Positions 4,665 to 17,441 of a stretch of 25,361 nt of DNA are shown piece after piece (position 1 is the first letter of the stretch; each line of letters starts with the position of its first letter). The stretch is from Shewanella sp. (GTDB lineage Bacteria > Pseudomonadota > Gammaproteobacteria > Enterobacterales > Shewanellaceae). The notes below the pieces were generated by a model. That model made no database searches and had not been told where the DNA came from. It saw only the letters and a list, made by a program, of their open reading frames with translations. The DNA is taken from contig SDWK01000239.1 of assembly GCA_004195335.1 (NCBI GenBank), forward strand, positions 1-25,361. Direction: 5' to 3'. A program made the position numbers and the translations under genes.

Positions 4665-7463
4665 TCACGATGATTTATAGCAATTTCCACCACTTTTTTT
4701 AGCACGGTACATTAACTTATCCGCTGTTTTTAATAACTCAACAGCCGTATCACCATCTGCAGGGTAAATCGCGATACCAATACTTGGCTTCACCCCTTGG
4801 GTTGGTATGTCACCTGCAGGCTTTTTTGCCAAATTCGTTAAAATGGTTTCGGCAACTTGGCAGACGATATCCAGATTTTTAGTTCGATTCAATATAATCA
4901 CAAACTCGTCAGCGCCAAATCTTGCCACAGTATCGGATTTTCTCACGGACAGTAGCAACTCTTGCGTGATAGTAATGAGCAAATTGTCACCCATTTTGTG
5001 ACCTAGCTGTGTATTGACCTCTTTGAGGCATCCAATATTGACAAAAAGGACGGCAAATGTACTCAAGTCTCGGCTATGATGAAGCACAGCCTGCTCTAAT
5101 CTATCATCTAGCAGCGAACGGTTTGGTAAATGGGTCAAACTATCATAGTTAGCAAGATGATTAAGTTTCTCTTCTAACGTGACTCTTTTGCTAATTTCTT
5201 GTCTCATTCGATATTTGAAGAATAAGAAAAAAAGTGTGAAGGCAAATATAAGCAAACAGATAAATAACCACCACATCGGTACTCGCGACTCTTTGGGTGC
5301 CGGAGGTAATTGTTTAACCCAATGTTGATAGATCTCCTGCTGTTTTTGCTGATTTAACGTACCAATTGCCATATTTATCATCGGCACTAATTTTGCCTTA
5401 CCCGAATGGATCCCAAAATGACTGTGCTGGTCTGAAAAGTCTGCCAAGACGGACATTTTTAGTTGCCCATAATCCCCCTGTTTAAGTTCTGCGGCCATAT
5501 TAGTCACTTTTTCAACGAAGGCGTCGGCGTTCCCTTCAGATACGGCCTTCAAGCCTGCACGGGTATCGGCAACGATCAATAATTCTAGGCCCTGTTCGGC
5601 GTTCACTAAATCGGAGACCAGTTGATAACCTTCGACAATGGCAAGCCTCTGACCCGCTAACTGCTGCATATGAAACACAGAGACGCGATCTATTGGTGTG
5701 GCCAAGGCCCATGGTGATGGCCAGTAAGAATCACTGAATAGTAGTTTCTTCTTGCGCTCTTCAGTCTCTGCCACACTGCCGGCGATATCGACATCACCAT
5801 TGAGTAGTGCGGTGATTAAATCCTGCCATTCATCATAAACGACAGACTCTAATTTCAAATTCAACTTATCAGAGATAAGTTGAACGACTTCGCTGTTAAT
5901 CCCGGAAAATACTCCTTTTGAGTCGGCATACTCCATGGGTCTCCAATTGTTCAGATAGCCTACTTTTAACACATCGATAGATGCCAGATAGTCTCGCTGA
6001 GAGTCTGAAAACTCCAGTCGCGTATTTTCAACATCGAAAACACGGTCTTTACTGTTAAGTATCCATTTCTGTTCAATTTCAGCCAATTCATTTTGGTCGA
6101 TTAATTCAAAACCCGCCTTGATACGTTTGTCTAATCCTAAATTCTCGGGGCGGGTTAACACAAATATTTCGGTTTCAAATTCAAGGTCATCATACTGATG
6201 AAACTCTGACCAGACATTATTTAATACAAGATAATGTTGGGTCCATGCAGACGATGCCACGAAACTACTGATATGGCCTTCTCTTGCCGCTTGGATCATC
6301 GACTCTACTGAGTCATAGAGTTTGAGTTGTACATTGGGGATAGCCTGTTTTAACTTCCCAAGGTAAGGAGCCGTCGGTACCGCACCTATCAGTGTCCCGG
6401 CAAGTGCATCTAAGTTATCGATAGAACGGCCAAAACTAAATAATCGGCTTTTTACCCGGTATAACAATTGGCTTCTCTGGAGGCCACTCTTAAGCTCATC
6501 ACTCTCGGGGTAGCCAATATGAACATCAGATTTTCCCATTCGAACTTCATCGAGTGAGCTGTTCATATCTCCTGTCGAGAAAAAAACCGGTATCCCGGTT
6601 TTTTCAGACCACAAATGCCAAATATCCACATATAAACCATGGGGCTGTTCATCACCACCAAGCGAGACGAAAGGCTCAATATTGAGTGTCGTTGCAACCG
6701 TAATGCCTCTTTTTTCTTGATTAATGCCGAGCCAACGTTCCTCTATTGCAGCAAGGCGCTTAGTGGATATCGCCGCAAATCCTAAATTAATTTTCTTCAA
6801 TGTTTTTAAATCTGACTTAATAACGGCAGGATGCAGAGGCGATTCTTTTATCAATAGTCTACTCTTTATGGGAAAAAGGCTGACAACCTGTCGATTCAGA
6901 TTATTGTCTTTAAGATATCCTTCCATTCCGGCAAAAACATATACCTCTCCTTCAATCACCCCTTCTAATAAGCTGTGTCTGCTATTGTAGCGTTTAAAGG
7001 TTAATTTAGGTTCAAGAGCAAGCAATTCGGCTTCATGAGAAGAACCTGACACTATGCCGATTTGATAGGGGGTAAGATCTGAAAATGACGACTTATCGGA
7101 CAGATCCTTATGCAGATAAAGGTAGGTTCTGACTTCAGATATCTGTTGAGCGAAATCAAACGTCTCTGAACGCACCGATGTTTTAGCCAAACCAACATGA
7201 GCATCAGCATTACCTTGTGAGAGTTGTTTTAGTGAGTCATGCCAATGCCGTGAAACAAAAACGACGTCTGTTCCCGTTTGCTGGCTCCAAGCTTTCCACA
7301 AATCAATGAGTATTCCATGCGCCTCTCCTTTCTCATCCACAAACTGGTAAGGGTAACTATCTTCTCCCATGACTAAGACTAACGGCCTGCTCTCATCGGC
7401 GGTAAGTCCAGAGGTATAAAAACTGACAAGTAAAAATGTCAGAAGCTTAATAAATGATTTCAA
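4665..7463 (-). CDS. Membrane sensor: three SBP-bac-3-like domains, one TM helix, degenerate GGDEF domain
   Basis: The 932-residue protein has a signal peptide (residues 1-22). Three consecutive periplasmic modules resembling family 3 solute-binding proteins follow, at roughly 27-245, 253-470 and 500-720. The third is the most canonical (VGYLNNWRPMEY, GVFSGINSEVV, DIAGSVAETEERKK). One transmembrane helix (730-753) leads to a cytoplasmic GGDEF domain (about 770-930). The signature is GADEF (850-854), and the first metal-binding Asp is Asn809 (FVNIG), with Gly at 811 and Thr at 818. By PleD numbering these correspond to D327, D329 and D336. The inhibitory c-di-GMP site RxxD (R841, D844) and the D/E pair at 852-853 are kept. 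The cyclase may therefore be weak or inactive and act as a c-di-GMP receptor (inference). Translation starts at TTG (7461-7463): a stop lies two codons upstream in frame and the next Met would lose the signal peptide. The ligand is unknown, though the modules suggest amino acids or similar small molecules. The gene is divergent from cmoA. Confidence 0.88.
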   Translation of the reverse strand: MKSFIKLLTFLLVSFYTSGLTADESRPLVLVMGEDSYPYQFVDEKGEAHGILIDLWKAWSQQTGTDVVFVSRHWHDSLKQLSQGNADAHVGLAKTSVRSETFDFAQQISEVRTYLYLHKDLSDKSSFSDLTPYQIGIVSGSSHEAELLALEPKLTFKRYNSRHSLLEGVIEGEVYVFAGMEGYLKDNNLNRQVVSLFPIKSRLLIKESPLHPAVIKSDLKTLKKINLGFAAISTKRLAAIEERWLGINQEKRGITVATTLNIEPFVSLGGDEQPHGLYVDIWHLWSEKTGIPVFFSTGDMNSSLDEVRMGKSDVHIGYPESDELKSGLQRSQLLYRVKSRLFSFGRSIDNLDALAGTLIGAVPTAPYLGKLKQAIPNVQLKLYDSVESMIQAAREGHISSFVASSAWTQHYLVLNNVWSEFHQYDDLEFETEIFVLTRPENLGLDKRIKAGFELIDQNELAEIEQKWILNSKDRVFDVENTRLEFSDSQRDYLASIDVLKVGYLNNWRPMEYADSKGVFSGINSEVVQLISDKLNLKLESVVYDEWQDLITALLNGDVDIAGSVAETEERKKKLLFSDSYWPSPWALATPIDRVSVFHMQQLAGQRLAIVEGYQLVSDLVNAEQGLELLIVADTRAGLKAVSEGNADAFVEKVTNMAAELKQGDYGQLKMSVLADFSDQHSHFGIHSGKAKLVPMINMAIGTLNQQKQQEIYQHWVKQLPPAPKESRVPMWWLFICLLIFAFTLFFLFFKYRMRQEISKRVTLEEKLNHLANYDSLTHLPNRSLLDDRLEQAVLHHSRDLSTFAVLFVNIGCLKEVNTQLGHKMGDNLLITITQELLLSVRKSDTVARFGADEFVIILNRTKNLDIVCQVAETILTNLAKKPAGDIPTQGVKPSIGIAIYPADGDTAVELLKTADKLMYRAKKSGGNCYKSS

Positions 7464-8447: not shown

Positions 8448-9440
8448 GTGATCAGTTTCAGCTCTTTTTATAAACAAATTGCAGACTCCAGCCTACAGCA
8501 TTGGTTAGAAACTCTTCCGGCCATATTGGGGCAATGGCAACGTGAGCATAAGCATGGCACCCTACCTAAATGGGAAAAGGTCCTCAACAAGTTACATTAT
8601 CCAACCCCTGATACCCTCGACCTCAAAAACGGCGTTTCTATTGGTTCCGGTGAACAGCTTGCGAAAGGTGAACAGGAAAAACTCGAAAACTTATTACGTA
8701 TTTTTCAACCTTGGCGCAAAGGCCCCTTCTCAGTACATGGTATAGATATTGATACTGAATGGCGTTCAGACTGGAAATGGGAGCGCATCCTTCCACACCT
8801 TTCTCCCCTGACTAATCGCACCGTATTAGATGTAGGTTGTGGCAGTGGCTACCATATGTGGCGTATGTTAGGCGAAGGCGCCAAACATGTTGTTGGCATA
8901 GACCCCTCCACTCTTTTCCTTTGCCAGTTTGAAGCCATCAAACGCATTGCCGGAGAGCACCACCCGGTTCATCTACTGCCATTAGGCATCGAAGAGCTTC
9001 CGCCTCTGGATGCATTTGATACAGTATTCTCTATGGGGGTCTTGTACCACCGTCGCTCGCCAATTGATCATTTGTTACAACTAAGAGATCAATTGCGAAC
9101 AGGTGGTGAATTAGTTTTAGAGACCTTAGTCATTGATGGTGATGAAAATACCGTTCTCGTACCGGAAGATAGATATGGCAAGATGAATAATGTATGGTTC
9201 CTTCCTTCTGCAGCCGCATTAGAACTTTGGCTGAAAAAAGCAGGCTTTATCGATATAAAATGTGTTGATATCGATGTCACATCACTGGCTGAACAGCGAA
9301 GCACAGATTGGATGCCGAATGAGTCATTAGTCGATTACCTGGATCCGACCAACGTAGACCTGACCGTCGAAGGTTATCCGGCGCCAAAACGAGCGACGTT
9401 TATAGCGACAAAAAATCAACCCAATAAAGATTTAGATTAA
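8448..9440 (+). CDS. cmoB: tRNA U34 carboxymethyltransferase CmoB
   Basis: CmoB transfers the carboxymethyl group from carboxy-SAM to 5-hydroxyuridine at tRNA position 34, giving cmo5U, which widens codon reading. The 330-residue product carries the family core: [20 protein letters not shown] (residues ~90-110), the SAM-binding loop [40 protein letters not shown] and [15 protein letters not shown]. It ends with [14 protein letters not shown]. The start is GTG at 8448: [12 protein letters not shown] matches the family N-terminus, and AGGGTGA lies at a suitable distance upstream. It is probably co-transcribed with cmoA. No terminator is visible between cmoB and the next gene. Confidence 0.97.
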
Positions 9441-9532: not shown

Positions 9533-10276
9533 ATGTTAAAGCAGATAATCTGTATTGCCGTGATCTCAACCTTAGCGGGTTGTGCTGCAACAAAAACAAC
9601 AGACAATGCACCTCAGCCAATCGATGCAATGGCATTAGAGTCAAGCCTCGCGAAGCAACAGGCAGAACTTGTGATTGCCATCGACGAGTCCAAACAAGCT
9701 CAAACCACTGGTTTTACAACGTTATCTACGCAAATCAAAGCGCTAGAAACTCAAATTTCGACAATAAGTGTTGAACCTAAAGAAAAAATAGTTCCTGTCG
9801 CAATCGACTGTCCAGCATCTCCCCTTGACGGGAAGTTCCTGCTTGGTGCGGAAGAAAATGTGTATGTTGACGAGATTAAAGCCAGTTTCAATACTCGTAT
9901 CGACACGGGTGCAGAATCGTCTTCACTCGACTCGCGAAATATCATTCTATTTGAGCGAGATGGAAAACAGTGGGTACGATTTGATGTCTTCACCGATGGT
10001 GTAGAGGCTCCAGCACAAACATTCGAATCAAAAGTCGAACGCTTTGTAAGAATAAAGCAAGACGCTGACGAGAAAAACGATCGCCGTCCGGTTATTCATG
10101 CTCATCTGAAGATAGGCAAGTATAAAGCCGAAACTGATCTCAACCTGGTTGATCGTAGTCACTTAGAATTTCCACTTTTGCTCGGACGTAAATTTATGCA
10201 AGACATCGCAGTTGTCGATGTTGGGCAAACATATATCCATGGAAAAATGAAGATCGCCACTGTCTCAAAAAAATAG
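9533..10276 (+). CDS. Lipoprotein with retropepsin-like (COG4067 / 'ATP-dependent zinc protease') domain
   Basis: The N-terminus MLKQIICIAVISTLAGCAAT is a lipoprotein signal with lipobox LAGC, so the mature protein should be anchored to a membrane facing the periplasm. The ATG at 9533 is preferred over an in-frame ATG at 9521, because GGAAG lies just upstream and the signal peptide then has normal form. A short predicted coiled coil (mature residues ~15-65, rich in A/E/Q/L) precedes a C-terminal domain of the PF05618 type. That domain has IDTGAESSSLD, where DTGA is the retropepsin-like active-site motif, and ends LLGRKFMQDIAVVDVG. The database name 'ATP-dependent zinc protease' is historical: the motif suggests an aspartic protease. 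It heads a five-gene run, with the next start 11 bases downstream. Related domains occur beside RimK-like ligases in other bacteria. The substrate is unknown. Confidence 0.88.
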   Translation: MLKQIICIAVISTLAGCAATKTTDNAPQPIDAMALESSLAKQQAELVIAIDESKQAQTTGFTTLSTQIKALETQISTISVEPKEKIVPVAIDCPASPLDGKFLLGAEENVYVDEIKASFNTRIDTGAESSSLDSRNIILFERDGKQWVRFDVFTDGVEAPAQTFESKVERFVRIKQDADEKNDRRPVIHAHLKIGKYKAETDLNLVDRSHLEFPLLLGRKFMQDIAVVDVGQTYIHGKMKIATVSKK

Positions 10277-10287
10277 GAATTTAGTTG

Positions 10288-11799
10288 ATGCATTCCAAGA
10301 AACCCTTTTACATACTCGTTGCACTGCTATTCATTTGCGGGATCTCTGCCAGTGTTTACCGTGGCGTAGAACATAAAGTGCCTTTCCTGCCTGGTAAACA
10401 AGTGCAAAGTTGGGCTGTTGATGCAAAAGTACAATTTCAAGGCACAGGTGAACCAGCCGAGGTTTCTTTTTCTCTGCCTAGCGATCCGGCATTCGAAATT
10501 CTTGTCGAAAATGCCACATCACCAGGTTACGGCTTATCAATTACTGATACTAATGATAAATCAGACCGACGTGCAATTTGGTCTGTCCGTTCGGCGCAAG
10601 GTAAGCAAGACCTTTACTATAAGGTAACCATTATTCCAACGGGTTCCACTAAGGTCATCGCCAGTGCAGAACCATCGGCACCCAAACCCTATATTTGGCC
10701 AGCAACTGAGCAGGCCGCAGCTGAACAGGCAACCCAAGAGGTCTGGGAAAAGAGTGCGACTAACCTCTCTTTTGCTCAACAGCTGAACAAAGCGTTGAAT
10801 GCACAGGAGAGAAGCCAGAATGTTGAACTTCTTTTAAGCAGCAATTCTCCCACTAAGCTTTTTTTGCACATGCTCCAAAGCAAAGGAATACCGGCTCAGG
10901 AAGTGAGTGGTCTGTTTCTGGAAGACCAACGTCGCAGACAGCAGTTGAGCACCTTTGTCGAAGTCTATAATGAAGGCGAATGGCACCTGTTCAACCCCAC
11001 AAATGGTACTCAAGGTCGAGATGACAACCTGTTACTTTGGGATCGTTCAGGAAAATCGGTACTCGATGTCATCGGTGGCGTTAACTCCCAAGTCAACTTC
11101 TCGATGCTTCAAGATACTCGCTCAGCACTCGCGACCTCTCTGGATGTAATGAATAATCAGGGCGCGTTGGATTTCTCCCTGTATCAATTGCCTCTGGAAG
11201 AGCAAAGCTTGTTCAAGGGGATTTTGTTGATCCCTATTGGCGTGCTTATGGTGGTTTTTTTACGTGTCATCGTCGGTTTGAAAACGTCAGGAACGTTTAT
11301 GCCGGTATTGATTGCATTAGCGTTTATTCAGACAACCTTATTAACCGGTCTCGTTGGCTTCATCTTAATCGTTGCCTGTGGCCTGATGATTCGCTCATAC
11401 CTGTCGGATCTTAACTTACTGCTGATCTCTCGAATATCGGCAGTCATTATCGTTGTCATCGGTATTATTGGCGTATTTACCCTCCTCTCTTATAAGTTCG
11501 GTCTGAGTGAGGGCTTAACGATCACCTTCTTCCCTATGATTATTCTCGCATGGACCATCGAAAGAATGTCTATCTTATGGGAAGAGGAAGGCCCTAAAGA
11601 GGTGGTGTTACAAGGTGGCGGCAGCTTATTCGTTGCCACACTGGCTTATCTGGCAATGAGTGCAACTTGGGTACAGCACTGGGTATTTAACTTCTTAGGC
11701 ATTCATCTGGTCATTTTGGCCGTGGTGTTGTTGATGGGTCAATATACCGGATACCGCTTGCTAGAGCTTAGACGCTTTAAGCCACTGGCCGGAGAGTAA
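10288..11799 (+). CDS. Inactive transglutaminase domain fused to a 7TM domain (UUP1-like membrane protein)
   Basis: An N-terminal membrane anchor (residues ~7-23) leads to a periplasmic region of about 280 residues. From about residue 308 a hydrophobic multi-helix domain of around seven helices follows, starting LFKGILLIPIGVLMVVFLRV and ending near YTGYRLLELRR. The periplasmic part has the transglutaminase-like core (KLFLHMLQSKGIPAQEVSGL, FVEVYNEGEWHLFNPTNG). The catalytic Cys, His and Asp positions appear replaced: Ser/Asn before PTKLFL, Ser-Thr-Phe where HxW is expected, and Asn in NPT for DPT. This agrees with the 'inactive transglutaminase plus 7TM' family. The frame also allows a TTG at 10285, but the ATG at 10288 fits the AGGAAT ribosome-binding site. 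It lies between the aspartic-protease-like lipoprotein and a RimK-like ligase, a recurrent trio. It may bind a peptide or ligase product in the periplasm (inference). Confidence 0.88.
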   Translation: MHSKKPFYILVALLFICGISASVYRGVEHKVPFLPGKQVQSWAVDAKVQFQGTGEPAEVSFSLPSDPAFEILVENATSPGYGLSITDTNDKSDRRAIWSVRSAQGKQDLYYKVTIIPTGSTKVIASAEPSAPKPYIWPATEQAAAEQATQEVWEKSATNLSFAQQLNKALNAQERSQNVELLLSSNSPTKLFLHMLQSKGIPAQEVSGLFLEDQRRRQQLSTFVEVYNEGEWHLFNPTNGTQGRDDNLLLWDRSGKSVLDVIGGVNSQVNFSMLQDTRSALATSLDVMNNQGALDFSLYQLPLEEQSLFKGILLIPIGVLMVVFLRVIVGLKTSGTFMPVLIALAFIQTTLLTGLVGFILIVACGLMIRSYLSDLNLLLISRISAVIIVVIGIIGVFTLLSYKFGLSEGLTITFFPMIILAWTIERMSILWEEEGPKEVVLQGGGSLFVATLAYLAMSATWVQHWVFNFLGIHLVILAVVLLMGQYTGYRLLELRRFKPLAGE

Positions 11800-11801
11800 T
11801 C

Positions 11802-12764
11802 ATGAGACTGTCATTTGCCAAACCTGCAGCACTGCGCAAAAATGGCGTGCTGTGCATGAATAAGCGAAACATTGATTATATTGGACGCTGTAACCCACGT
11901 AAGTTTTATAAGCGGGTAGACGACAAATTAATCACTAAACAACTTGCACTGGCTAATAACATTGCAGTTCCGGCATTAATCGGCGTCGTACGTGAACAAC
12001 ATGAGATCGAAGAGATCCCAGCAATGGTTCTTAACGAGGATGGCTTTGTTATCAAGCCATCTAAAGGTTCTGGTGGTAAAGGTATCTTGGTTATCACCAA
12101 AGTCGAAGAGGGTCGTTACTATAAACCTAACGGCCAAGAAGTGGTGCCAAGTGAGGTGTACCGCCACGTTTCAAATGTTCTCAGTGGCTTGTTCTCATTG
12201 GGGGGTTCCCCTGATGTGGCCATCGTCGAAGGACTCATTCAATTCGATCCGGTTTTCGATGGCTACTCCTATGAAGGTGTGCCGGATATCAGGTTGATCG
12301 TCTATAAGGGGTTTCCTGTCATGGGAATGCTCAGACTGTCCACTGCAGCTTCTGATGGTAAGGCTAACCTTCACCAAGGCGCCGTCGGCGTAGGGGTCGA
12401 TATTGGAACAGGAAAGGGCCTCCATGCGGTTCAATTTGACATACCTGTCGAACGACATCCTGATACGAATAAGATACTGACCGACATACAGGTCCCTCAT
12501 TGGGACTTCCTACTTCACACCGCTTCTCAAGCTTATGAAATGAGTGAAATGGGTTATCTAGGTACCGACATGGTACTAGATAAAGTCAAGGGACCACTGC
12601 TGTTAGAGCTTAATGCCAGACCGGGTCTTGCGATTCAGATCGCCAATAACCGTGGGATTTTACCCTATCTGGATCATGTCGATTCTTTGGGTAACCATAA
12701 TATGACTGTAGATGAACGTGTCGAATATGCCAAAAAGCATTTTGCTCATAGCGCTCAGCTTTAG
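11802..12764 (+). CDS. RimK-like ATP-grasp ligase (alpha-L-glutamate ligase-like protein)
   Basis: The 320-residue cytoplasmic protein has ATP-grasp features: FVIKPSKGSGGKGILVI (nucleotide-binding glycine-rich loop, residues ~76-92), GVPDIRLIVYKGFPVMGMLRL, and the metal-binding segment LLLELNARPGLAIQIANN near 265-282. It belongs to the group annotated as 'alpha-L-glutamate ligase-like' and related to RimK. Such enzymes use ATP to form an amide bond between an amino acid and a carboxylate; the real substrates here are unknown. GGAGAG lies 5 bases before the ATG, and the previous gene's stop is 2 bases upstream. Its 3' end overlaps the next gene by 53 bases (38 from the preferred start). There is no signal peptide, so it works in the cytoplasm beside the 7TM protein. 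Confidence 0.92.
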   Translation: MRLSFAKPAALRKNGVLCMNKRNIDYIGRCNPRKFYKRVDDKLITKQLALANNIAVPALIGVVREQHEIEEIPAMVLNEDGFVIKPSKGSGGKGILVITKVEEGRYYKPNGQEVVPSEVYRHVSNVLSGLFSLGGSPDVAIVEGLIQFDPVFDGYSYEGVPDIRLIVYKGFPVMGMLRLSTAASDGKANLHQGAVGVGVDIGTGKGLHAVQFDIPVERHPDTNKILTDIQVPHWDFLLHTASQAYEMSEMGYLGTDMVLDKVKGPLLLELNARPGLAIQIANNRGILPYLDHVDSLGNHNMTVDERVEYAKKHFAHSAQL

Positions 12765-14466
12765 TCTCTACCTAAGTGTCATTGCGGCGGCTCAGTCCGC
12801 CGTATCACCTCTCCCTTTACTCGTTGAGCAGTGTCTGCGGCTGCAACCAGCAGAACAAGTTCTTATCTCGTCACCGACTCCCTTGCGCAATATTGATGAT
12901 GCCGTAGCCAAAAGCCGTGCATTAGAGGCTTCAATGTTAAGCCTGTTTAATGTCAAAGATCGCCTCCGATACTATAAAAGCCAACCTATCGCCCCCGAGT
13001 ATCAAGAGAGTCTACTGCAATGCCAACTTCATCTGGCCGATCTGATGGCAGAAACGTTAACCTCACCCGTGTTAGCTCAGCTACTCAGATTCAATAATCA
13101 AGAAAACGAAGAACAGTTTCAATTAGGTTTACGCTGGCGTGGACTTGCCGATGATAACGCCAACTTAATCTACAAATCGCAACTTCATACATCGCAAGCC
13201 GCAGTGAAGCAAGGCTTAAGATCCCAAGCGCTAACATTGCAGTTCGGCAATACTAACTGTGATATCAATCATGAGAGGGAGGCTCAAAGTATTCCCCAAA
13301 CGGGAAAAAAATCCTTCGATAAAAATATTGCGGCTTATTTGATAAAACAAAAGGACTCTCGTTGCCAACAACTCGTTTGGAACGCCTATCAGGGCCGTGC
13401 TCGTGAAAAAAACGCAAAAGCTTTAGCCCGTATCATTCGATTAAAAAACGAGGCCGCCGCTCGAGTAGGTTACCGAGATCACACCGACTACTCACTATCA
13501 AAACAGTTCCTCTCAACACCGGAACTTGTAAAAGCATTTTTGAATTCAGTGACTCGACGAGTCGACTCACCGCCCTGGAAATTTGGTATCAGTCTCAGCC
13601 AAAGCCCCAAAACCGAGGTCGCGCAATTCGATTCAATTTCGATGCTGACACGTTTGTACAAGGCCGCTGAACCACTCGGCTTTAATGTTGAAATCGTCAC
13701 AGATAATATTCATCGAGTGTGGCACCAAGACAGGTTGTTAGGCGACATATTCTTCAGTGAAGCCCCCACTATTCGCGCCGACACGCTGCGATTTCCGGTT
13801 GTGGGTAGCCAGTTTGGTCAACTACAGATTTCATCTAAGCCTCTACTCAATAGCTACAGGGATCAGCAAGCGTTGATTAAGGCCACGGCATTAGCCTTAG
13901 CGACGTTAGCATCCAGCAGCCACCACTACCTTATTAATGCGTTAGGTGAAACACGAGATACTTCTCAATTAGGCAGGCTTTGGTTAGAGTACACCCTTAC
14001 AGATACTATTCTCCCCCCTTTAAATGACGACAGTCGTGAACAAAAATTAGCGTTATATGGTCGACAGCTAAAGATATTTAGAGCAAAAGTCGCACTCAAT
14101 TTTTATTCCAGTGCAGAGCCCAAGCTCTATCCCAATCTGAGCAATGAGTTTATTCGCGCATTCGGAAAAAAGTGGGGTAAAACTGAAGATTATGGCTACA
14201 ATTTTTTCGCCATTGCCGATGAGGGACCAATGTATTATCAACATATTTGGCAAGAGTCTCTAGCCAAATATGTTTATCAAAAAACCAAAAACTGTCAGGA
14301 TCAAGTCAAAGTTTTTGACATACTTATGATTAATGAACCTTCCTCTCGTCTGGAGCAGAGACTTGAGACACTCTTGGGTTCACCCATTACAGCCAAATCT
14401 CTCATTAAAAGGATAAATGATGTCACCCTTTCTCAAGATCAGCGTCCTATCACTTGCTCTCTTTAG
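12727..14466 (+). CDS. Secreted M3-peptidase-like protein lacking the zinc site (pseudoprotease)
   Basis: An N-terminal signal peptide (MPKSILLIALSFSLY...) indicates export. The preferred start is ATG 12727; an in-frame ATG at 12712 would only lengthen the n-region. Numbering from 12712, residues 220-285 resemble the M3 (thimet oligopeptidase/OpdA) helical core (LARIIRLKNEAAARVGYRDHTDY). VWHQDRLLGDIFF resembles its strand before the active site. Residues 496-565 (MYYQHIWQESLAKYVYQ, then LETLLGSPITAKSLIKRI) resemble its C-terminus. Where HEFGH is expected the sequence is KATAL (~390-394). The third zinc-ligand Glu position is Thr (~430), and the active-site His/Tyr/Tyr positions appear as Phe/Glu/His around 499-511. 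It therefore looks like a dead protease scaffold, possibly a peptide binder (inference). It overlaps the ligase gene upstream and the next gene downstream. The M3 relationship was judged by eye. Confidence 0.7.
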   Translation: MPKSILLIALSFSLYLSVIAAAQSAVSPLPLLVEQCLRLQPAEQVLISSPTPLRNIDDAVAKSRALEASMLSLFNVKDRLRYYKSQPIAPEYQESLLQCQLHLADLMAETLTSPVLAQLLRFNNQENEEQFQLGLRWRGLADDNANLIYKSQLHTSQAAVKQGLRSQALTLQFGNTNCDINHEREAQSIPQTGKKSFDKNIAAYLIKQKDSRCQQLVWNAYQGRAREKNAKALARIIRLKNEAAARVGYRDHTDYSLSKQFLSTPELVKAFLNSVTRRVDSPPWKFGISLSQSPKTEVAQFDSISMLTRLYKAAEPLGFNVEIVTDNIHRVWHQDRLLGDIFFSEAPTIRADTLRFPVVGSQFGQLQISSKPLLNSYRDQQALIKATALALATLASSSHHYLINALGETRDTSQLGRLWLEYTLTDTILPPLNDDSREQKLALYGRQLKIFRAKVALNFYSSAEPKLYPNLSNEFIRAFGKKWGKTEDYGYNFFAIADEGPMYYQHIWQESLAKYVYQKTKNCQDQVKVFDILMINEPSSRLEQRLETLLGSPITAKSLIKRINDVTLSQDQRPITCSL

Positions 14467-15514
14467 CTTTGGTATTCTTGCTAACTCAGAAGTGGCCACC
14501 AGCAAGACGAGCCCTACACCTCAAGATGACGTTTTTTATGGAATAAAAACTAATCTAGAGCAACACCTGTATCAGCTCCCCCCCAGAGTACAGGGGCATT
14601 ATGGTATTAGAATGTATCGCATGACCGGCGACGAAAAGTATGCAAATGCCGCGCTTGTCGACCTGTATGCGGTCAGCGATTCTCAGGGCTTTTACGCCTG
14701 TAACTTAGACAAGCCAAACTTTATTCAGTCTGAAGCCGAAAAAGCCATCTCTGTACTGGGAAAAGGTCCGAGAGCAAAAGCACGAAAAAAAGCCCTTGAA
14801 CCGTTTCCTGAGTTTTTGTTTTACACAGATGTGCTTCTACGTTTCTCGAGTCGTATCGATGAGTTTGGTTTAACGGGCCCGTGTAATGACAAATTAATCA
14901 AGACCCTCAAGAGTGCGGAACTCGAAGCAGGCTTAACCGATAAGGCGATGATCAAATCTTGGGCGGCGCAACTGATTAACTATGTCTACTGGGCTAAACA
15001 ACTGGGCGTAGGGGATTATTTAGAGTCCTATAAACAGGCATTTATATCTGTCTACCCGGATAACAAAGACAATGAGCTCAATAAGAAACAGTATCGTAAT
15101 AAACTCTACGGCATGACTCATTTCATCTTTGCTGCCAGTGAATACTATCAGCATGACGTCAGCCCTAAGGAGTTCGCCTGGATCCTTGACTATTTTGAAG
15201 CCAATATCGACCGAATATTGACAGATGCCACAGATGACATTATTGCTGAAGTCGGTATTAGCTTTCATCTTGCAGGTCTTTCAGATAATCCTGTTGTCGC
15301 CCGGACTCAGCAACATATCATTAATGCATTCGATAAAGAGGAGCAGATCATTCCCTCCCCGATGGGAAATCCCGCTCTAGCCATGGGGGAACACAGAAAT
15401 GTATTAGCCATGATGTTGCTCAAGTGGCCCGAAAAACTGCATAAAGGCCCCTACTTCGGTCAACTTAAGGCGACAAAAAAGTACTTGCCTAAGCAGGTCA
15501 AGGTAAAGCAATAA
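14417..15514 (+). CDS. Secreted protein of unknown function
   Basis: The 365-residue protein begins with a signal peptide (MMSPFLKISVLSLALFSFGILA) and should be periplasmic or exported. The rest looks mostly alpha-helical. Segments such as HYGIRMYRMTGDEKYANAALVDLY and AWILDYFEANIDRILTDATDD are reminiscent of alpha/alpha-toroid or tetratrico-like helical folds. There is no catalytic motif I can name; a relation to DUF3541 is possible but unverified. Start: AAAGGAT lies 4 bases before the ATG at 14417 and 7 before a second in-frame ATG at 14420, either of which could be used. It overlaps the M3-like gene by 50 bases, so the two are probably translationally coupled and may act together. It is the last gene of the five-gene run. 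Confidence 0.8.
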   Translation: MMSPFLKISVLSLALFSFGILANSEVATSKTSPTPQDDVFYGIKTNLEQHLYQLPPRVQGHYGIRMYRMTGDEKYANAALVDLYAVSDSQGFYACNLDKPNFIQSEAEKAISVLGKGPRAKARKKALEPFPEFLFYTDVLLRFSSRIDEFGLTGPCNDKLIKTLKSAELEAGLTDKAMIKSWAAQLINYVYWAKQLGVGDYLESYKQAFISVYPDNKDNELNKKQYRNKLYGMTHFIFAASEYYQHDVSPKEFAWILDYFEANIDRILTDATDDIIAEVGISFHLAGLSDNPVVARTQQHIINAFDKEEQIIPSPMGNPALAMGEHRNVLAMMLLKWPEKLHKGPYFGQLKATKKYLPKQVKVKQ

Positions 15515-15640: not shown

Positions 15641-16543
15641 ATGGATAGAGCCAAATCAACACTCGAGCAATGGCGAACATTACAAGCAGTCGTCGATTAT
15701 GGCGGCTATTCACAAGCAGCAGCAAAACTCAATAAGAGTCAATCCTCTCTGAATCATGCGGTAGCAAAACTCCAGACACAATTGGGTATAGAACTGCTCG
15801 AAGTCAAAGGTCGAAAAGCCTATTTAACCGAGCAAGGCGAAGTACTCTTGAGGCGGTCACGCCACATTACTAAATCTGTGGCTGAGCTCGAATTACTCGC
15901 AAATAATTTGGAGAATGGTTGGGAACCGAGCCTCACTATTGGACGAGAGATCATCTATCCGATGGACAAGTTAGTCGATGCATTATCAGCCTTTCAGCCG
16001 GAGAGTCGGGGGACACGCATAACGATTGTCGACTCAGTCATCACAGGCACTCATGAACTGATTAAAGGTCAACTCGTCGACATTGCAATCTCAGGTGGCG
16101 TTCCACCTAAAGGCTTTCTAAGTGAACCCTTGTGTGAATTAGATTTTTTATTAGTCTGTCACCCAAACCATCCACTGGCCAGTGCCCCCAATATTGAAGA
16201 TGATCGGACATTAGCCGAACACCTTCAAATCGTGATTAAAGACACGGGACAGGAATCTAATATCGATCTTGGCTGGCTAAAGGCTGAACAGAGGTGGACT
16301 GTCTCAAATTTTCATGAAGCCTTAGCCATACTAAACCGCAATATCGGATTTTGCTGGGTTCCGAAGCACTTAGTGGATTCATTAATCGAAACCGGAAAAT
16401 TATGCCAACTCCACCTCAAGGGGAATAGCCATAAAAAGGTCATGATGAGCCTGATTATCCCCAATAGAGATAGGCAAGGTCCGGCAAGTGAACGACTTGA
16501 GCAATTGATTATGGCTCAACACAGTAAAAATGAATATTTATGA
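15641..16543 (+). CDS. LysR-type transcriptional regulator
   Basis: The 300-residue protein has a typical N-terminal winged helix-turn-helix (residues ~8-66: LQAVVDYGGYSQAAAKLNKSQSS, then LETQLG-like LQTQLGIELLE). A linker and a substrate-binding-like effector domain follow (SLTIGREIIYP, VDIAISGGVPP, FLLVCHPNHPLA). The DNA-binding part follows the family pattern closely. Targets cannot be told from the sequence. It stands 126 bases after the five-gene operon on the same strand, with the inverted repeat 15559-15590 in front, and ends 16 bases from a convergent gene. The usual divergent partner gene is absent. Confidence 0.93.
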   Translation: MDRAKSTLEQWRTLQAVVDYGGYSQAAAKLNKSQSSLNHAVAKLQTQLGIELLEVKGRKAYLTEQGEVLLRRSRHITKSVAELELLANNLENGWEPSLTIGREIIYPMDKLVDALSAFQPESRGTRITIVDSVITGTHELIKGQLVDIAISGGVPPKGFLSEPLCELDFLLVCHPNHPLASAPNIEDDRTLAEHLQIVIKDTGQESNIDLGWLKAEQRWTVSNFHEALAILNRNIGFCWVPKHLVDSLIETGKLCQLHLKGNSHKKVMMSLIIPNRDRQGPASERLEQLIMAQHSKNEYL

Positions 16544-16559
16544 ATTAACTGACGTAGGT

Positions 16560-17441
16560 TTAAACGCTAAAGCTAAAGGAGCTGGCAGGTTTGTTCTCGG
16601 GCAGGTACTTTGCGAGTAAGGTATCAGAGAGGTATCCTTCAGTTTGATCTTGACTGCTTAATAGCTCAAATGTGGGTTCAGGGAAGGCCTTTAACTGCCC
16701 GTTTATCGTCTCTATGGTTTGTCCCACCACATTATTTTCTTCAGGCTGCGCTCTTCGTATGGCTCCGGTGCTATCGACCTCACCGGCTATCGACATCTCA
16801 GGAGGCTCTGGCGGTGTAAACCCATCGATGATGGCTTGGGCATCGATCAGAGGAGCCATATCTTTAATGGTCATGACTTCACTCTGCCTCATTACAGCCA
16901 GTTCCGATTGTGCCTGATTCATCTTTCTCATCGCATCGCTCGCCACACGAATATCGGCCATAGACGGGTTAGCCGGAGCCATTGCCGCCGCATATACCCG
17001 CCTCATCTTGTTTACCGTCGCTAATGGATCTCCCCGCACGACGGAGATATCTATCGACACTTCACCGTCTACAGCATAACGCTTACCATCACTTCCCTGT
17101 TCATAACTAAATCGTGGACTCTGGGCTAAATTGCCTCCCACGGATGAATGAGCCTGCTCATGACCCTTAACTTCGGTATCTCGTTTAGACAGTTCTGCCA
17201 GAATTTGTTGCTCAATAATAGCGTTACTGTCGCTGCCCTGCTCTTGAAATGCTCTCTTGCTCATCTCAGAGGGTTCAAATATTGAGCCCGTCACTTTTTC
17301 CTCTGGATCAGGACGCTCTTTTGCAAAAATGTTCTGTGCAACATGTTCAGGCTTAGCTGATGGCTTACCGCTGGCATCGCCAGCTGTCGGTGAAGCATTG
17401 GTATCTGTAGCTACATTGCTGACGGTATTAGTGTTTGCGGG
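16560..17441 (-). CDS. SprA-like putative metalloprotease, C-terminal part (separated from its N-terminus by a frameshift)
   Basis: This frame is open from 17441 down to 16560. It carries the conserved domain of SprA-related putative metalloproteases (the 'CJM1_0395 family'). Its HEQAH motif fits a zinc-binding HExxH (in VKGHEQAHSSVGGN) and is followed by YEQGSDGKRYAVDGEVSIDIS and ATVNKMRRVYAAAMAPANPS. No ATG lies upstream in this frame; the first usable start would be a GTG at 17294. However, codons 17295-17441 read as sensible protein (NTNTVSNVATDTNAS, then KPEHVAQNIFAKERPDPEEK). That is best explained as the continuation of the ORF at 17411-17917 after a one-base frame change. Function in the family is unproven. 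It is convergent with the LysR gene. Confidence 0.75.
   Translation of the reverse strand, partial: PANTNTVSNVATDTNASPTAGDASGKPSAKPEHVAQNIFAKERPDPEEKVTGSIFEPSEMSKRAFQEQGSDSNAIIEQQILAELSKRDTEVKGHEQAHSSVGGNLAQSPRFSYEQGSDGKRYAVDGEVSIDISVVRGDPLATVNKMRRVYAAAMAPANPSMADIRVASDAMRKMNQAQSELAVMRQSEVMTIKDMAPLIDAQAIIDGFTPPEPPEMSIAGEVDSTGAIRRAQPEENNVVGQTIETINGQLKAFPEPTFELLSSQDQTEGYLSDTLLAKYLPENKPASSFSFSV

Follow-up and report, generated by a model that had tools for sequence, protein, structure and literature searches.

A Shewanella rlo-type operon with a DUF3541 protein linked to it by occurrence and an M3-like pseudopeptidase that persists without it

The window, i.e., the whole stretch of 25,361 nucleotides of Shewanella DNA analyzed here, contains an operon encoding a retropepsin-like lipoprotein, an inactive-transglutaminase protein with seven transmembrane (7 TM) helices, and an ATP-grasp ligase, followed by genes for two exported proteins. 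This raises the question of whether the latter two are working parts of one system with the first three, as the original prediction had held, with one of them binding a peptide on a dead protease scaffold.

Gene organization of the locus

The relevant features, all on the plus strand, are as follows.

8448..9440, + strand: cmoB, outside the system and used as a locus marker; above the cut-off of the NCBIfam CmoB equivalog model
9533..10276, + strand: rloA-type gene; lipoprotein N-terminus with LAGC, linker, and C-terminal retropepsin domain (residues 104-238) with DTGA
10288..11799, + strand: rloB-type gene (ATG at 10288, alternative TTG at 10285); putatively inactive transglutaminase domain and 7 TM helices
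11802..12764, + strand: rloC-type gene; ATP-grasp, alpha-L-glutamate ligase-like
12727..14466 (or from ATG 12712), + strand: gene for an exported M3-like pseudopeptidase, overlapping the 3' end of rloC
14420..15514 (or from ATG 14417), + strand: gene for an exported DUF3541 protein; predicted (alpha/alpha)6 toroid
15641..16543, + strand: gene for a LysR-type regulator (PF03466, PF00126), the usual right neighbor

The predicted packing of the five genes on one strand was confirmed by a check of the open reading frames and sequence: gaps of 11 bases (rloA/rloB) and 2 bases (rloB/rloC) are followed by overlaps of 53 or 38 bases (rloC/M3-like) and of 50 or 47 bases (M3-like/DUF3541), depending on the start codon. 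We compared the locus across 71 Shewanella genomes, 62 rlo-bearing and 9 rlo-less, in all of which cmoB is the left neighbor. The order rloA-rloB-rloC-M3 is intact in all 62 rlo-bearing genomes, indicating that the arrangement is not due to chance, and DUF3541 comes next in 56 of them. The RloC and M3-like frames overlap in 57 of 60 measurable genomes and the M3-like and DUF3541 frames in 53 of 55, both counts being upper bounds, as the starts of the longest frames were used. A scan for operon signals returned 22 promoter-like sites (16.1 expected) and 6 terminator-like sites (8.2 expected), counts that are uninformative. The last two proteins were judged to be secreted by their hydrophobic N-termini, seen in 69 of 70 M3-like and 56 of 56 DUF3541 sequences.

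The rloABC-type core

The first three genes identify the locus as an rloABC-type operon, a kind already described in Pseudomonas, here joined by two exported proteins. RloA matches PF05618 (4.3e-35) and the solved structures 9g59 and 9g58; all 62 Shewanella sequences possess DTGA or DSGA along with a lipoprotein-type N-terminus (a strict pattern picked out 53, and visual inspection the remaining 9). RloB matches PF14400 (5.1e-53) and PF14402 (6.5e-108), and its transglutaminase domain is probably inactive, going by the Pfam family. RloC matches PF14397 (3.1e-94) and, at 438.8 bits, exceeds the TIGR02291 cut-off of 314.2. The NCBIfam cut-offs for RloA (best model RloA2, 100.2 versus 250 bits) and RloB (323.7 versus 900 bits) were not reached; hence, we regard the operon as rlo-type, lying outside those narrow models.

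In P. aeruginosa, where the operon was named rloABC and encodes a retropepsin (RloA), an inactive-transglutaminase/7TM protein (RloB), and an ATP-grasp protein (RloC), there is genetic evidence that the three act in one process (mBio 2025, PMC12239564), which bears out the expected recurrence of these families as one system. There, polyglutamate chains 8 or 10 residues long are cut by RloA in vitro. A strain without any of its three RloA proteases is rescued, fully or partly, when rloB or rloC is also deleted, which suggests that what RloB and RloC produce does harm if RloA is not there to act on it; the operon has effects on cell shape, biofilm, and osmotic survival and on how cells tolerate wall-acting antibiotics (PMC12239564). 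In Shewanella, the evolutionary rates of the core proteins covary (Spearman 0.35 for RloA-RloB and 0.38 for RloB-RloC).

DUF3541 and its association with rlo

The fifth product, originally taken as a secreted protein of unknown family, belongs to PF12060, i.e., DUF3541 (4.7e-146; 486.2 bits against a gathering score of 28.2). No paper on DUF3541, PF12060, or IPR021928 was found in the literature searched. It is present in 58 of the 62 rlo-bearing Shewanella genomes and in none of the 9 rlo-less ones, all 58 carriers having RloB. Outside the genus, RloB is likewise found in 9 of 9 genomes with DUF3541 (G081, G084, G090, G105, G108, G113, G120, G301, and G482, the last with a short fragment), in 6 of which DUF3541 is unlinked to rlo. 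Altogether, 67 of 67 DUF3541 genomes carry RloB, counting the one fragment and the unlinked cases from several families. Thus, by occurrence, DUF3541 belongs with the rlo system; among the 71 Shewanella genomes it is restricted to rlo-bearing ones, and it likely acts on the same product. The converse dependence does not hold: DUF3541 is missing from 4 of the 62 Shewanella genomes with rlo, and just 3 of 79 RloB genomes in a gammaproteobacterial sample have it, indicating that rlo does not need DUF3541.

This rarity, along with the presence of DUF3541 away from rlo in two Shewanella genomes (G018 and G057) and in other families, would also fit a neighbor with its own function, whose co-occurrence with rlo stems from shared ancestry, lifestyle, or genome content. 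Correction for ancestry leaves 4 independent pairs, in which DUF3541 changes in the same direction 2.6 times on average and in the opposite direction 0.0 times; with so few independent losses, significance is not reached. We nevertheless consider an independent function unlikely, given that even the unlinked genes occur with RloB and that the losses strike genes on both sides of the M3-like gene. The rate of DUF3541 covaries with that of RloA (0.32), and no covariation was seen with RloC (0.04).

DUF3541 is predicted to adopt an (alpha/alpha)6 toroid fold, whose inner helices were assigned from the alternation of conserved helices, a good but imperfect pattern, as helices 117-126 (0.80) and 253-269 (0.72-0.75) are also fairly conserved. 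Of its 17 conserved charged residues, 11 are basic, which would suit an acidic ligand, a guess from residue chemistry. A different reading has DUF3541 as a glycan-active toroid enzyme and RloC as a ligase that, instead of building polyglutamate, decorates peptidoglycan or an envelope glycan with a short peptide or an amino acid. In comparisons with the toroid families GH15, GH88, GH105, and LanC-like proteins, the DUF3541 fold matched many unrelated enzymes at similar Z; the toroid is common to terpene cyclases and LanC-like proteins, which reach the same Z, a point against the glycan reading. Further, it sits poorly with polyglutamate cleavage by RloA in vitro and with the lack of complementation by two mutants whose changes lie in those contact residues closest to the active site (PMC12239564). 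Hence, we regard it as improbable.

As VxrB controls rlo in V. cholerae (PMC12239564), we considered a link between DUF3541 and the VxrAB cell wall sensor. In G090 and G113, the immediate neighbors of DUF3541 encode a GGDEF protein and an EamA-type transporter or methyltransferase. In G090, a histidine kinase/response regulator pair, which may or may not be VxrAB, lies 5.6 kb away (L093:16490-18542); the G113 genes checked around DUF3541 encode a TRAP transporter and include no such pair. The link is thus unsupported but conceivable. A separate source (PMC4398505) concerns, in its accessible part, an unrelated gene.

The M3-like protein: loss of the zinc site and retention without rlo

The fourth protein has the thimet oligopeptidase fold, with the M3 fold spanning its whole length, and falls short of the PF01432 gathering score (23.6 versus 27 bits). 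HExxH is absent from all 70 M3-like homologs and from all 69 whole Shewanella frames (the fragmented M3 frames of G035 and G055 were left out of the column counts); none of the four zinc site residues is kept in 63 of the 69 and one is kept in 6. The Shewanella proteins thus lack the combination of HExxH and a third-ligand Glu by which we recognized active M3 peptidases, and the missing zinc ligands contradict the database entries that label them as M3 or M2 metallopeptidases. The proposal of a dead protease therefore holds for Shewanella; it does not extend to the ortholog in the same operon slot of Gallaecimonas, which keeps the zinc motif. An intact HExxH...E is present in 5 of 5 proteins from Gallaecimonas and close relatives, which share cysteines with the Shewanella family.

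This orthology draws on mixed evidence. Ten M3 peptidases that carry HExxH, nine of them encoded in Shewanella genomes and one in Gallaecimonas and all with lipoprotein-type N-termini, gave a weak hhalign match (85%) to the Shewanella M3-like family, a gap that the Gallaecimonas operon proteins bridge (98.8% and 97.8%). As a single query, the Gallaecimonas operon protein scores higher against the other M3 protein of its own genome (57.6 bits) than against the Shewanella proteins (42.9), which argues against orthology, whereas profile scores (76.1 versus 35.4 bits), the cysteines, and the gene slot favor it.

The M3-like gene is found in all 71 Shewanella genomes, including the 9 without RloB, RloC, and DUF3541, where it stands alone between cmoB and the adjoining LysR gene (9 of 9); it is whole in 8 of these, and in G055 both its frame and that of cmoB are in pieces. 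In all 9, rloABC on its left and DUF3541 on its right are gone, so that a single deletion does not explain the pattern. Of 6 pairs of rlo-less genomes, 3 could be measured, all drawn from G002, G006, and G029, and gave a dN/dS of 0.099 to 0.145 for the M3-like gene; the 18 pairs that could be measured out of 19 with rlo gave 0.088 to 0.239. The gene is thus under purifying selection in rlo-less genomes where this could be measured. Such retention makes a separate function likely.

These results bear on whether all five genes form one machine, in which the dead M3 scaffold would bind the product peptide on behalf of RloA and DUF3541. The tight gene order with its frequent overlaps speaks for such a machine, as does Gallaecimonas, where M3, rlo, and DUF3541 are present together in 3 of 5 genomes and absent together in 2. 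However, the M3-like gene survives in every rlo-less Shewanella genome (fragmented in G055), with purifying selection in the three measurable pairs (dN/dS of 0.10 to 0.15), and its rate does not covary with those of RloA, RloB, and RloC (0.07, 0.17, and -0.22). Accordingly, a single machine has in our estimate a small chance of being correct. In terms of the original prediction, neither extra gene occurs mostly without the first three across the 71 Shewanella genomes, and DUF3541 stands as a system part by occurrence; the M3-like protein does not need the core and is not upheld as a working part. As a separate observation, the strongest covarying pair was the M3-like protein and the MT7612 methyltransferase (0.39), for which we have no explanation.

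Proposed function

Taking these findings together, we find the best explanation, which we hold at roughly even confidence, to be an rlo-type operon on whose product DUF3541 likely acts, alongside a zinc-less M3-like protein that has probably become independent of it. Assuming that the Shewanella product is the same as that of P. aeruginosa, the predicted output of RloC is an acidic amide of the glutamate type; RloB would present it or carry it over the inner membrane, and the lipoprotein RloA would cleave it in the periplasm. There DUF3541 likely acts on the same product, possibly binding or cleaving it in a basic central pocket. The intact Gallaecimonas M3 oligopeptidase might digest short peptides released by RloA. 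The Shewanella protein, a zinc-less oligopeptidase relative that likely no longer needs rlo, could have a separate periplasmic role, such as peptide binding.

The locus joins a known operon type to DUF3541, a system-linked accessory on which no paper was found, and to a decoupled pseudoprotease. We tentatively raise the possibility, which we regard as doubtful, that DUF3541 is a new periplasmic enzyme or receptor for an acidic amide polymer of RloC exposed via RloB, and the first dedicated downstream factor besides RloA, and that the protease of the M3 slot, which served the system as an oligopeptidase in Gallaecimonas, became zinc-less in Shewanella and later persisted as a free-standing pseudoprotease after the system was gone. 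DUF3541, being tied to rlo by occurrence, offers a handle on the rlo product. The M3-like gene forms a natural series, from an active enzyme bound to the system through a dead one next to it to a dead one without it, which lends itself to the study of a pseudoenzyme gaining independence.

Comparison with known systems

An rloB-like gene affects vesicle release in a Shewanella strain: disruption of hm2192 in Shewanella vesiculosa HM13 yields 1.9-fold more vesicles, which are larger and uneven in size (J Bacteriol 2025, PMC12096838). Each Shewanella genome with rlo carries a single PF14402 gene (split into two pieces in G001), so that hm2192 is likely the rloB of that strain, a judgment made from gene content rather than from the hm2192 sequence. 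In its accessible part, the report treats hm2192 alone, the mutant being a single-crossover insertion, and describes complementation for two other genes only; hence, effects on downstream genes are possible.

The RimABK system, which modifies ribosomes, similarly combines an ATP-grasp ligase with a polyglutamate-cutting retropepsin. It differs in that RimB is cytoplasmic and an RloB-type membrane protein is absent (PMC12239564), whereas the Shewanella retropepsin has a lipoprotein-type signal; the Shewanella proteins score below the cut-offs of the RimK family (TIGR00768, 34.1 versus 143.4 bits) and RimB (54.7 versus 200 bits) models. Unlike the M3 oligopeptidases thimet oligopeptidase and neurolysin, the Shewanella M3-like protein lacks HExxH and has conserved cysteines. 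Pseudomonas rloABC shares the three families in the same order, namely, a secreted retropepsin, an inactive transglutaminase with 7 TM helices, and a cytoplasmic ATP-grasp protein; the RloC proteins are likened through the adjacency of a TIGR02291-type ATP-grasp gene, the TIGR02291 match itself being from the Shewanella side only. Unlike the Pseudomonas operon, that of Shewanella encodes an RloA with a lipoprotein-type N-terminus and a linker preceding the protease domain, and it extends into the M3-like pseudopeptidase and DUF3541.

The five-gene locus in Shewanella

Within the window, one contig of a 5.9-Mb genome, five plus-strand genes lie between cmoB and a LysR-type gene, and the gaps and overlaps of the original prediction were reproduced from the open reading frames in the sequence:

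8448-9440, cmoB, left flank
9533-12764, +, gene 1 (retropepsin lipoprotein, PF05618), gene 2 (inactive transglutaminase with seven transmembrane helices, PF14400 and PF14402) and gene 3 (ATP-grasp, TIGR02291)
12727-14466, +, gene 4, M3-like protein, scoring slightly below the Pfam cut-off
14420-15514, +, gene 5, DUF3541 (PF12060)
15641-16543, LysR-type gene, right flank

The first three constitute an operon type that is already known, its genes being named rloA, rloB and rloC in Pseudomonas aeruginosa (PMC12239564). Adjoining the LysR-type gene is a minus-strand gene (16560-17294) whose product has an HExxH motif (HEQAH) close to its N-terminus and matched none of the NCBIfam models searched. 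A common left neighbor of the locus (4665-7463, minus strand) encodes a 932-aa diguanylate cyclase, parts of which resemble amino-acid solute-binding proteins.

DUF3541, RloB, RloC, the M3-like protein and the retropepsin were searched for in 118 relatives, 71 of them Shewanella (the window's own genome included), and gene order was read at all 71 Shewanella loci. The order rloABC and then the M3-like gene was found in 62 genomes, i.e., every one with RloB; the DUF3541 gene follows immediately in 56 of these, lies at another genomic site in two (G018 and G057) and is missing from four (G017, G036, G043 and G066). RloB, RloC and DUF3541 were not found in the other nine genomes, yet each of these carries the M3-like gene, flanked by cmoB on one side and the LysR gene on the other (cmoB and the M3-like gene are both fragmented in G055). 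The same rlo-less state was seen at 9 of 49 titled Shewanella loci, a set overlapping with the 71, including those of S. oncorhynchi, S. hafniensis, S. xiamenensis, S. morhuae and S. profunda. PF05618 retropepsins, some with frames of 464-467 aa, are present in one to five copies in all rlo-bearing genomes, and none was found in eight of the nine rlo-less ones (G050 has two); hence, paralogues are missing together with the operon. RloB or RloC frames are broken in G036, G001, G003 and G035 (loci L103, L142, L120 and L168); G036, one of the four genomes from which DUF3541 is missing, clusters with species that have no rlo and looks like a case of ongoing decay of the operon.

DUF3541, but not the Shewanella M3-like protein, tracks the rlo operon

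The original prediction took the five genes as one envelope peptide system, with the last two encoding exported parts. Its observation holds and its interpretation is half right: all 64 DUF3541-bearing genomes among the 118 relatives have RloB, but in Shewanella the M3-like gene persists alone where rlo is gone. Likewise, among 369 evenly drawn gammaproteobacterial genomes, DUF3541 is present in three (in one, G482, as a short fragment), all with RloB, which itself occurs in 79 (78 above the cut-off). In three of five Gallaecimonas genomes, RloB is accompanied by two DUF3541 genes and a close M3 gene, and in the other two all three are absent.

Linkage alone is insufficient to explain this pattern, as DUF3541 is distant from rlo in six of nine non-Shewanella genomes (on a separate contig in G090 and G113). 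Nor does a single deletion suffice, since the Shewanella losses fall on both flanks of a retained M3-like gene. On a quick tree of CmoA-type and CmoB proteins from 77 genomes, at least five state changes are needed for rlo and seven for DUF3541; in four independent pairs, too few to reach significance, DUF3541 changed in the same direction in 2.6 on average and never in the opposite one. DUF3541 is plainly optional for rlo and a good candidate for a new component of the system. For Shewanella, the M3-like protein should be removed from the proposed system. In a branch-rate test, the highest covariation of any pair was that of the M3-like protein with the MT7612 methyltransferase (0.39).

In the sister genomes G018 and G057, DUF3541 directly precedes a gene for an M14 zinc carboxypeptidase, a class that includes deglutamylases, with a hydrophobic N-terminus. 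The pairs are as follows:

L098:8033-10686, DUF3541 and M14 zinc carboxypeptidase (PF00246, 8.3e-15)
L100:4439-6925, DUF3541 and M14 zinc carboxypeptidase, 76% identical to that in L098

A PF16683 transglutaminase-type protein is encoded close to the L098 pair, and in G090 a histidine-kinase/response-regulator pair (L093:16490-18542) lies 5.6 kb from DUF3541.

We propose that RloC likely makes a glutamate-type amide product, which RloB would present or move to the periplasm, where it would be cut by RloA and bound or trimmed by DUF3541. Short fragments would, in Gallaecimonas, be finished off by an intact M3 oligopeptidase; the Shewanella version has lost its zinc site and likely acquired an rlo-independent role.

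Parallels with characterized systems

PMC12096838 describes hm2192 of Shewanella vesiculosa HM13 as an inactive transglutaminase with seven transmembrane helices, whose disruption yields larger and 1.9-fold more numerous vesicles. We infer that hm2192 is rloB, because each of the 62 rlo-bearing Shewanella genomes has a single PF14402 gene (in two pieces in G001). Downstream genes may contribute to the effect, as the mutant is a single-crossover insertion and the paper describes complementation for only two other genes. In P. aeruginosa, PMC12239564 reports that survival under hypo-osmotic conditions, biofilm, tolerance to antibiotics and cell shape all depend on RloA and its paralogues, that deleting rloB or rloC rescues a triple rloA mutant fully in osmotic growth and partially in the other traits, and that in vitro RloA cleaves polyglutamate chains 8 or 10 residues long.
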